A DNA stretch of 14,108 nt. Source: Candidatus Zhuqueibacterota bacterium (GTDB lineage: Bacteria > SM23-31). Positions 6,819 through 14,018 of this stretch are shown here, piece after piece. Both the position numbers and the translations under genes were made by a program. How positions within the stretch are numbered: position 1 is the first letter of the stretch; each line of letters starts with the position of its first letter. A model generated the notes under the pieces. That model had not been told where the DNA came from. It saw only the letters and a program-made list of their open reading frames with translations, and searched no databases. Location: assembly GCA_022562855.1 (NCBI GenBank), contig JADFON010000011.1, positions 1 to 14,108 of the forward strand, written 5' to 3'.

Positions 6819-7559
6819 TTAGTTGTGGATTGCCTTGGCGTATTCCAAAATTAAATTGTCTTTCCAATTGTTTTCAAGGGAATTGCCGACTACGATAATA
6901 TCGGCTCCCGCCGCGACCTTTGCCCTCGCCTGGTCAGGGGTCGTTATACCACCGCCAACAATCAAAGGGAGGCTGCAAATCTGATTTACTGCCCTTATCA
7001 TCTCGTCAGGTACGGTTTGCGGCGCTCCCGAACCGGCTTCAAGGTATATTAGTTTCAAGCCGATATACTCTGCCGCCAATGCATGGGCGGCGGCAATATC
7101 CGGTTTGTTTCGCGGTATCGGACGTGTATTGGAAATAAATTCTGTCGTCGATACACTGCTTGATTCTACCAGCATATATCCCGTCGCAATAGGCTCGATT
7201 TTGTTTTCCCTGATCGATGGCGCTGCAATCACGTGGTCGCCAAAAAGAAAATTGGGATTCCTGCCGCTTATGAGCGATAAAAACAAAATTGCATCCGCAT
7301 ACTGCGATACTTGCTTTGGACTGCCGGGAAAAAGTATCACAGGTATCTCGGAATGAGATTTTATCTGTTGTACCATTTTGTCGAAAGAATCATTAAGGAG
7401 CAAACTCGAACCGACAAATATCGCGTCTACATTCAGGTCCTTGCTCTTTTTTACAAAACCTTCAAGGCCCTGATATGGCGTCTTGTCCGGATCGATAAGG
7501 ACACAAAAAACGGCTCCTCGCTTTTTGATCGTATCTATTAGATAATTGAAGATATTCAC
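6819..7559 (-). CDS. pcrB: Geranylgeranylglyceryl-phosphate synthase family (PcrB/GGGPS, group II)
   Basis: The 246-residue TIM-barrel prenyltransferase joins a polyprenyl diphosphate to sn-glycerol-1-phosphate by an ether bond, the committed step of archaeal-type lipids. Visible motifs: FCVLIDPDK (18-26, Mg/diphosphate-binding Asp), LFLSLISGRNP (92-102), IYLEAGSGAP (171-180), LIVGGGITTP (199-208) and GADIIVVGNSLE (218-229), the last two forming the glycerol-phosphate site. The SGRNP and YLEAGSGA motifs resemble group-II enzymes from Bacteroidota and some archaea more than Bacillus PcrB; this family placement is from memory. Prenyl chain length cannot be read from sequence alone. It starts with GTG; an AAGG about 10 nt upstream is the likely RBS. 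It lies 75 bp after alaS and 33 bp before gmhA. Confidence 0.9.
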   Translation of the reverse strand: MNIFNYLIDTIKKRGAVFCVLIDPDKTPYQGLEGFVKKSKDLNVDAIFVGSSLLLNDSFDKMVQQIKSHSEIPVILFPGSPKQVSQYADAILFLSLISGRNPNFLFGDHVIAAPSIRENKIEPIATGYMLVESSSVSTTEFISNTRPIPRNKPDIAAAHALAAEYIGLKLIYLEAGSGAPQTVPDEMIRAVNQICSLPLIVGGGITTPDQARAKVAAGADIIVVGNSLENNWKDNLILEYAKAIHN

Positions 7560-10971: not shown

Positions 10972-11297
10972 TATTGGTCTATTGTACGATTGTCAGAAAA
11001 CAATGTATTGAAAAATTAAAATGAATTCAATAAATTTTTTCCAGACTCATTTCCATATTGAGCATATAAAAAAGCAGGGATAACCGTCCCTGCTTTATAA
11101 AATAAAACCAATATGTGTCCAATTTCTTATCTGATTATCAATCTGCGCTGTCAATCAGGATCAGATGTCCGGAAAACCGAAATTCACTGCAAAAACATAC
11201 ACTACGGTAAACTAAGTAAGTTATAACCATTTAAAATACAAGAAATAATTTTAATTTGTTAAAAATTTGGTTTGGCGGTTTCTCCTGCATTTCCGTT
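10972..11297. other. 326-bp gap: selD terminator and recX-operon promoter region
   Basis: There is no coding sequence. The stretch between the selD stop (11298) and the hairpin (11096) is AT-rich. It has one minor inverted repeat ATCTGAT / ATCAGAT (11129-11135 / 11160-11166) with a 24-nt loop. The 93 bp between the terminator and recX should carry the promoter of the recX-alaS-pcrB-gmhA operon; no clear boxes were recognised. Confidence 0.5.
11065..11096 (-). terminator. Rho-independent terminator downstream of selD
   Basis: AAAGCAGGGA (11071-11080) and TCCCTGCTTT (11087-11096) form a perfect 10-bp stem with a 6-nt loop. Read on the minus strand the stem is followed by a T-run (TTTTTATAT, down to about 11065). 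It therefore ends transcripts arriving from selD, about 200 nt after its stop, and separates them from the recX operon. Confidence 0.85.
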
Positions 11298-12353
11298 CTA
11301 TTTTCTCACGACCATCTGTCCGGCGGCTCCGGCGGTCACTTCGCCAATGATCGAGGCATCTTGAACTTCCTCTTTCAACAGCCGGGAAAGGAGTTCTTCG
11401 GCTTTATCCCTGTGAATCGATATGAGCAGTCCTCCGGAAGTTTGCGGATCGTACAGCACGAGCTGTTCGGATTCTGTAATACTGCTGTCGAACGAGACTT
11501 TATCATCCAGGTACTCTTTGTTCGTATACGCTCCTCCGGGAATATTTCCTTTTATACAATATTCTTGAGTATCTTTGAGAAGCGGAACTTTTGACGATTG
11601 AATTTCAATGGAAACGCTGCTTGCCGCCGCCATTTCATGCGCGTGACCGAGAAGACCATACCCTGTAATGTCGGTGCAAGCGTGGGCGCCGAATTCCTGC
11701 ATGAGCACTGAAGGGATCTTATTGAGCGTGGTCATGCATTCGCAAATCATGTCTTCTACTTCGGGAGAAGCCTTTCCAAATTTTATCGCCGTCGCAAGAA
11801 TCCCGGTGCCTATGGGTTTTGTCAGTATAAGTTTATCACCGGGTTGTGCGCCGGCGTTTGTTATAATCTTTTCCGGGTGTACGACTCCCGTCACCGCAAG
11901 TCCGTATTTGACTTCGGGGTCCATAATGGAGTGCCCGCCCAGTATCACTGTCCCGGCTTCATTTGCCTTGTCGGCGCCTCCTTTAAGAATCTCGATAACC
12001 GTTTCAATCTCAAGATGCTTTTTCGGATAACCGATAAAATTCAGCGCTGTCAGAGGTTTTCCGCCCATCGCATAAATGTCGCTTATGGCGTTTGCCGCAG
12101 CTATTTGTCCGAACTTATAGGGATCGTCCACCAACGGGGTGAATATATCAATCGTCTGGATGATCGCCAATTCATCGGTCAGTTTATACACGCCGGCGTC
12201 GTCAGCGTGGGACGTACCTACAAGCACATTTTCGTGATCCTGTTTCGGCAGGTGCTCTAATATCTTGCTTAACTCCGTTAAGCTCAGCTTAGACGCTCAA
12301 CCGGCGCATTCGACGAGTTCGGTAAGCCTTTTTCTTTTGTCAAAAAGCTTCAA
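11298..12353 (-). CDS. selD: Selenide, water dikinase (selenophosphate synthetase), itself a selenoprotein
   Basis: The enzyme makes selenophosphate from selenide and ATP, the selenium donor for selenocysteine (Sec) and selenouridine. The uninterrupted frame begins at an internal GTG (12227, residue 43). The conserved N-terminus continues upstream in frame: RLTELVECAG, then TGA (12297-12299), then ASKLSLTELSKILEHLP. This matches the SelD pattern AG-[C/U]-x-x-K, so TGA is read as Sec19, with catalytic Lys22. The start is the TTG at 12353, with GAGGAG 9 nt upstream. The resulting 351 residues match the family (E. coli 347). Further motifs: SHADDAGVYKL (48-58; D51), TIDIFTP (67-73; D69), AAANAISDIYAMGGKPL (85-101; D92), LGGHSIMDPEVKYG, TDITGYGLLGHAHEM and DPQTSGGLL. 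It is 52 bp downstream of the TauE/SafE gene and probably cotranscribed with it. A GTG-initiated version would lack the catalytic site and make no functional sense. Confidence 0.93.
12257..12299 (-). promoter_or_regulatory. Bacterial SECIS element with the recoded TGA of selD
   Basis: On the minus strand, TGA (12299-12297) is followed 13 nt later by GCTTAAC-GGA-GTTAAGC (12283-12267). This is a perfect 7-bp stem with a GGA triloop. A lower stem CTAA (12292-12289) / TTAG (12260-12257) extends it across an internal loop. The apical loop begins 20 nt after the TGA and has G in its first position. Both match the usual bacterial SECIS rules (loop roughly 16-37 nt after the UGA, small loop with an early G, where SelB binds). 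The hairpin is inside the coding sequence. Confidence 0.85.
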
Positions 12354-12362
12354 ATCTTCGGT

Positions 12363-12368
12363 CTCCTC
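12363..12368 (-). promoter_or_regulatory. Ribosome-binding site supporting the TTG start of selD
   Basis: GAGGAG on the minus strand lies 9 nt before the TTG at 12353. No in-frame ATG or GTG exists between the upstream stop TAA (12380-12378) and the recoded TGA, so TTG is the best start. Confidence 0.75.
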
Positions 12369-12405: not shown

Positions 12406-13209
12406 TTAAATGAATCCGAATCCTAATAGAACCGCGAAAACTAAAAGCAATGTGCCAACTATTAAATGAACGGTTCTGACCGTTACTTTCTTCATCAGGC
12501 GCGACCCGGCAAACGAACCGAGAAACGCCGCCGCCGTTGCCGCCACGAGTACCGACAAACTGTTACTTTCTTCTATTTCGCCCAGGTTTGCAAGCTGCGA
12601 AAAAAATGCAAATCCGTAAACCGTTATCCGTGTTATATCGACAACAATCGCAGATATCACGGAAGTTCCGATAAAACTTTCTTTGTCTAATCCGGTCCTG
12701 ATGAGAAACGCTGCCCTTAATGCCCCCTGGTGACCGGATATCCCCCCAAAGAAACCGGAAATTGCACCACCGGCTGAGATATATCTTTGACTGAAAATTG
12801 TTGAATACCTATTCCGGTCGAGGCTTACCATTTCAATAAGACCAAATATAAGCATCAGAACCGCGATGATAGCTTTTACCGGAGTAATATCCATATTATT
12901 CCCGAAAAGCATATACTCGTAATGAAACGGTACGCGTGATAATTTTGTCAGTAGCAGCGCACCGAATATAGAGCAAATTCCGGCAGGAAGCGCAAACCGC
13001 ACAACTACATTCCAATCCGCATGTTTACCGACAAGAAAGAACTTGAATATATTATTCAGTAAATGAACTACCGCTGTGGATGCTACAGCGATGTTCGCCG
13101 GAAAATAAATCATAAAAGCGGGCAGCAGGAGTGTTCCAAGTCCAAAACCGGACAAAAGCGTCAATGCGGCAACAACAAGGGCGGCTCCACATATTATGAG
13201 GTACGGCAT
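12406..13209 (-). CDS. TauE/SafE family membrane transporter
   Basis: The 267-residue integral membrane protein belongs to the TauE/SafE (former DUF81) family. Members move sulfur compounds such as sulfite or sulfoacetate, or other organic anions, across the inner membrane; many remain uncharacterised. Seven to eight hydrophobic segments are visible (about 3-26, 28-52, 68-89, 109-130, 145-170, 179-206, 217-238, 245-267). The family's paired repeats show as LLSGFGLGTLLLPAFMIY (18-35) and ISGFFGGISGHQGALRAAFL (150-169), the second carrying the G-x-x-G-G hallmark. The sequence is complete and typical in length. There is no clear RBS. It is 52 bp upstream of selD on the same strand, which raises the possibility of a selenium or sulfur oxyanion substrate. 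That is context, not evidence of substrate. Confidence 0.85.
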   Translation of the reverse strand: MPYLIICGAALVVAALTLLSGFGLGTLLLPAFMIYFPANIAVASTAVVHLLNNIFKFFLVGKHADWNVVVRFALPAGICSIFGALLLTKLSRVPFHYEYMLFGNNMDITPVKAIIAVLMLIFGLIEMVSLDRNRYSTIFSQRYISAGGAISGFFGGISGHQGALRAAFLIRTGLDKESFIGTSVISAIVVDITRITVYGFAFFSQLANLGEIEESNSLSVLVAATAAAFLGSFAGSRLMKKVTVRTVHLIVGTLLLVFAVLLGFGFI

Positions 13210-13373: not shown

Positions 13374-14018
13374 TCATTTTCCCGGAGGTTCGGGCAACAT
13401 GGGGTGGCAGTAGAGACACTGGTCGAAATCTTCTACGCTTACCAAAGTCTTATCGAACCGTTCGATATGTTCCCCGTTGTGACATTTTCCGCAGTCGTTG
13501 TACATGAGGGGCCAATTGGTGGTATAAGTGCCGACGTCTGCAGGGTCTATATGAACTATGCCCCTGTGGCAGTCCACACAGTTCATGTTATTTTGCTCTA
13601 TGTGGACCCGGTGAGCCATTCGTAAGCCCAAAGTTTCCAGCAATGTTTCCGGAAGATCGTCAAAACCTAATTCATTAAAGTAGAATATCGCAGAATGGCA
13701 GCTCTTGCAGTTTGCGGTTGCGATTGGTATCGGGTCTTCGTGAGGTTCGATATTGACGCCCCAATCGGTTACCGTTGCAAACCACCACCGCAGGACTTTG
13801 CCCTGTCCGTCAATATTTCCTGCAAGACCCGGGTTAAGATGGCACTCGGTACAGTCGACCGATTTATGTGTCGACTCGACCCACCTCGCATGTTCAGGCG
13901 TGTGACACGTTCCACAGGCGAAGTTTGTCTGAGAGACTTTGATCGTGGCGGCGTACAGTACAACGACTGCTCCGCCAAAAATCAATAGACCCGTGCGGCT
14001 CAGGTTTTTTAGTTTCAT
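13374..14018 (-). CDS. Membrane-anchored six-heme c-type cytochrome (NapC/NirT/NrfH-like)
   Basis: The 214-residue protein has one N-terminal signal-anchor (about residues 9-27) and six CXXCH heme-binding motifs: CGTCH (35), CTECH (56), CKSCH (104), CVDCH (147), CGKCH (176) and CLYCH (201). The first two with their spacing (THKSVDCTECHLNPG) resemble the NapC/NirT family of quinol dehydrogenases. These pass electrons from the quinol pool to periplasmic reductases; six motifs exceed the four or five usual in NapC/NrfH. Extra histidines (H43, H51, H93, H136, H139, H156, H184) could be distal ligands. No reductase partner is visible; it could be encoded beyond the right edge. It lies 164 bp upstream of the TauE/SafE gene on the same strand, perhaps as a separate unit. 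Heme attachment needs a cytochrome c maturation system elsewhere. Confidence 0.85.
   Translation of the reverse strand: MKLKNLSRTGLLIFGGAVVVLYAATIKVSQTNFACGTCHTPEHARWVESTHKSVDCTECHLNPGLAGNIDGQGKVLRWWFATVTDWGVNIEPHEDPIPIATANCKSCHSAIFYFNELGFDDLPETLLETLGLRMAHRVHIEQNNMNCVDCHRGIVHIDPADVGTYTTNWPLMYNDCGKCHNGEHIERFDKTLVSVEDFDQCLYCHPMLPEPPGK

Follow-up and report, generated by a model that had tools for sequence, protein, structure and literature searches.

A probable selenocysteine codon in selD

The selD gene of the window, which is the 14,108-nucleotide stretch of DNA analyzed here, appears to be a selenoprotein gene, in which SelB and Sec-tRNA-Sec would insert selenocysteine (Sec) as residue 19 and the resulting full-length enzyme would make selenophosphate, the product upon which its own synthesis would depend. 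We place the probability of this reading at about 0.96, based upon sequence comparisons, and the in-frame TGA of the gene is very probably read as Sec by this bacterium. The gene occupies positions 11298 to 12353 of the minus strand and encodes a selenide water dikinase of 351 aa when TGA is read as Sec, with AIRS and AIRS_C domains. Its frame runs from TTG 12353 to TAG 11298, and the sole interruption is the TGA at 12299-12297. In a family model search the protein scored 397 bits against TIGR00476, for which the curated cut-off is 125, and its closest solved relative is E. coli SelD (3u0o; E = 1.7e-67), with the whole protein covered. The TTG at 12351-12353 is the only ATG, GTG, or TTG codon between the TGA and an in-frame TAA located 5' of the gene at 12380-12378, in the alignment it occupies exactly the same columns as the ATG that begins each of the selD orthologues in genomes G001 and G004, and it is preceded, 9 nt upstream, by a Shine-Dalgarno-like GAGGAG (12363-12368, minus strand). 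The gene is a genuine selenophosphate synthetase gene, and the earlier proposal that its frame extends upstream through the TGA to a TTG preceded by GAGGAG is borne out in both coordinates and sequence.

The TGA (12297-12299, minus strand) is found at the catalytic position. In an alignment with E. coli SelD (3u0o) and Aquifex aeolicus SelD (2yye), the corresponding residue, U19, falls upon the catalytic Cys, and the Lys found three residues beyond the Cys/Sec is present as K22. This agrees with the suggestion of the earlier note that the TGA stands in for the catalytic Cys. Across 47 SelD loci, with the window counted, this codon is TGA in 40 and TGC or TGT in seven. TGA is likewise retained at the same codon in close relatives, namely G001, which is from the same family, and G003 and G004, which are from the same class. 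Three SelD proteins with Cys (L026, L029, and L034) are located within long open frames of ~745 aa and are probably fusions to another upstream domain. Separate TGA-type SelD genes are also carried by G050 and G035.

A conserved hairpin downstream of the TGA

Downstream of the TGA is a 17-nt hairpin (GCUUAAC-GGA-GUUAAGC; 12267-12283, minus strand) consisting of a perfect 7-bp stem and a GGA loop (12276-12274) that begins 20 nt past the UGA. A published model of the bacterial Sec insertion element (bSECIS) specifies a loop of 3-9 nt and a stem of 4-16 bp located 16-37 nt from the UGA, together with a G as the first or second nucleotide of the loop and an energy of ≤ -7.5 kcal/mol (PMC13188914). 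With its 3-nt GGA loop, 7 bp, 20-nt distance, and energy of -10.3 to -12.5 kcal/mol, the hairpin lies within every one of these limits, just as had been surmised from its perfect stem, loop, and spacing. A Watson-Crick stem of this length arose at a permitted place in 0.5% of synonymous-codon shuffles that used the codon usage of the window, and shuffles based upon the codon usage of the gene itself yielded z = 3.8 (P = 0.002). Since such a hairpin follows 6 of the 503 TGA triplets in the window, that of selD included, the hairpin by itself constitutes weak evidence. An Rfam search of the window yielded no match, which is to be expected given how variable bSECIS elements are.

It is the conservation of the hairpin, rather than the hairpin alone, that argues decisively for a bSECIS in this sequence. 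The SelD proteins of the window, G001, and G004, which represent three genera, are 56-71% identical, and the G001 sequence in this comparison was joined across two contigs with a 40-nt overlap. The longest nucleotide-identical run among the three genes is the 17-nt hairpin, followed by a run of 8 nt. Of the 171 residues that are identical in all three proteins, only 33 (19%) are specified by the same codon, whereas all five codons inside the hairpin are identical while the flanking codons vary. Such identity reflects selection upon the RNA and not upon the protein. Among six homologues in which the loop is likewise at 20 nt, compensatory changes occur in six of the seven stem pairs and the GG of the loop is invariant. 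The covariation score was 0.96 compared with 0.40 in shuffles, and none of 500 shuffles reached 0.96. When the hairpins of homologues were compared with synonymous shuffles, the mean z was 2.2 for the TGA-type genes and 0.1 for the Cys-type genes (Mann-Whitney P ~1e-4, a value that is indicative only, as the homologues are related). The distance of the hairpin from the TGA varies by lineage and is mostly ~16-21 or 33 nt.

Sec machinery and additional probable selenoprotein genes

The earlier note had also held that the organism decodes Sec and had pointed to selA, selB, and tRNA-Sec as the genes to look for, and all three are present in the same assembly. selA (530 bits) and selB (377 bits) adjoin each other on contig C464, while a tRNA-Sec with a UCA anticodon (69 bits) is found on C435. 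The encoded SelB carries both of the SECIS-binding winged-helix domains (PF09106 and PF09107). It should be noted that the assembly is a metagenome bin of 491 contigs with 79.6% completeness and 2.5% contamination, and that selA/selB and tRNA-Sec are located on contigs other than that of the window. Contamination is nonetheless an unlikely source of the machinery, because the GC contents of the window (0.414), C464 (0.412), and C435 (0.432) are alike and because selA and selB are close (64% and 57% identical, respectively) to one of the two sel lineages of G001, referred to here as lineage I. Together, the aligned U19, the bSECIS, the presence of selA, selB, and tRNA-Sec, and the retention of TGA in relatives support Sec decoding by this organism.

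Three more genes with an in-frame TGA were identified in the assembly, all of the AhpC/TSA type (thioredoxin fold), and these are probable further selenoprotein genes. L084 (G000:C234) encodes WASWUVC, in which UxC takes the place of the usual CxxC; L088 (G000:C199) encodes the deiodinase-like GACTUPPY and matches PF00837 with 42 bits; and L098 (G000:C350:6-137) is a contig-end fragment encoding NNTPGUN. No convincing bSECIS was found for L088. Other selenoproteins were looked for in selected families, and none were found among FlpD and the molybdopterin oxidoreductases. MnmH, searched for in the assembly as a potential user of SelD in the selenouridine pathway, was not found either.

Alternative explanations for the TGA

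Three other accounts of the TGA were weighed. Given that the sequence comes from a metagenome assembly and that automatic gene calling would place the start of selD at GTG 12227, the triplet could be imagined as a sequencing or assembly error or as the true stop of a selD pseudogene. However, the frame is otherwise unbroken and conserved, the hairpin is under selection, and TGA occupies the same codon in the same-class and same-family relatives and in most homologues. Sequencing error is ruled out because G001, G003, and G004 all retain the TGA, and we consider both the error and the pseudogene refuted by its conservation in independent genomes, with a residual probability that is negligible. 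Just as improbable is a functional protein that begins at GTG 12227, downstream of the TGA and lacking the catalytic loop. That ORF does appear in the mechanical ORF list, but its product would lose the catalytic Cys/Sec, the Lys, and the conserved N-terminus, and both G001 and G004 conserve, in frame, the codons further upstream as well as the start.

Slightly less improbable, though still very much so, is that the TGA is read as another amino acid (Trp or Cys), whether through an altered genetic code or through some tRNA besides tRNA-Sec. Some homologues do have Cys at this codon position, which would accord with such a reading; however, with table 11 the other genes of the window translate without interruption to a normal stop, dedicated tRNA-Sec, SelA, and SelB are present, and the hairpin would be needless.

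If the TGA is read as Sec, ribosomes would start at TTG 12353 and then encounter the UGA at 12299, where SelB carrying Sec-tRNA-Sec would bind the hairpin at 12283-12267, such that Sec is placed as residue 19. Sec19 would be the catalytic residue within a mobile N-terminal loop, acting together with K22, and the 351-aa enzyme would convert selenide and ATP to selenophosphate. SelA would use this selenophosphate to produce Sec-tRNA-Sec, and because SelA needs selenophosphate for that step, SelD synthesis would depend upon the product of SelD itself. We infer insertion in vivo, catalysis, and this feedback from knowledge of the family. To our knowledge, the same dependence applies to all Sec-SelD proteins.

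Comparison with known SelD systems

Sec-SelD is a long-known, widespread, and well-described selenoprotein, and the arrangement in the window is ordinary, already established biology rather than something new. Compared with bacterial Sec-SelD proteins such as that of A. aeolicus, the fold family and Sec position are alike, the bSECIS again falls within the coding region, and the genome again contains selA, selB, and selC; the window differs only by its sequence divergence, its TTG start, and the orphan location of the gene next to a TauE/SafE gene. E. coli SelD (3u0o) belongs to the same enzyme family, but has Cys at the catalytic position where the window has Sec.

The adjacent gene (12406-13209, minus strand) encodes a TauE/SafE-family permease (PF01925, 86 bits), is located 52 nt upstream of selD, and is possibly cotranscribed with it. 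A phmmer search with one query sequence found no TauE/SafE gene near selD in any of the other loci scanned, many of which were represented by 1.5 kb flanks only, and on this basis we set aside a role for the permease in selenium uptake. Upstream of the permease gene is a multiheme c-type cytochrome (13374-14018), while downstream of selD is a hairpin resembling an intrinsic terminator (11071-11096, minus strand), in which a T tract follows a stem of 10 pairs. Elsewhere in the window (6819-7559), there is a gene of the geranylgeranylglyceryl phosphate synthase family (289 bits), here in a bacterial genome.

Two sel lineages in related genomes

G001 has two sel systems, and each includes a separate tRNA-Sec gene with a UCA anticodon (L090, L091, and L092). 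Lineage I is arranged as selA-selB-selC on C62, and lineage II as selA-selB-selD-selC across C164 and C18. G002, which like G001 is a relative from the same family, similarly has a complete lineage I with selC adjoining and a second selB, of lineage II, that is truncated by the contig (L093 and L094). The SelB proteins of the two lineages are ~35-41% identical in these genomes. SelB scored above the cut-off in 44 of the 98 genomes scanned, with two such proteins in G001 and G002 alone. Photobacterium profundum 3TCK provides a precedent, as its genome has been reported to contain two complete sel operons (PMC5330540). The SelD of the window clusters with its lineage II counterparts from G001 and G004 (support 97/83), and its 17-nt SECIS is identical to those within their selA-selB-selD-selC clusters. 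Unlike in those clusters, however, the window selD is located outside of a sel cluster, and the selA, selB, and tRNA-Sec identified in the same assembly look like those of the other lineage, lineage I. No lineage II selA or selB was found in the assembly, which is ~80% complete. One tentative and rather doubtful scenario is that the family once had two divergent Sec-decoding systems, of which this organism kept only the lineage II selD, such that its lineage II SECIS would be decoded by the SelB and tRNA-Sec of lineage I. The other lineage II genes may just as well be located in the fifth of the genome that the assembly lacks.

These results correct the annotation of selD, which automatic calling would truncate or begin too late, and they indicate Sec decoding in a poorly sampled bacterial lineage. 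The two sel systems of the sister genomes are more unusual than Sec-SelD.
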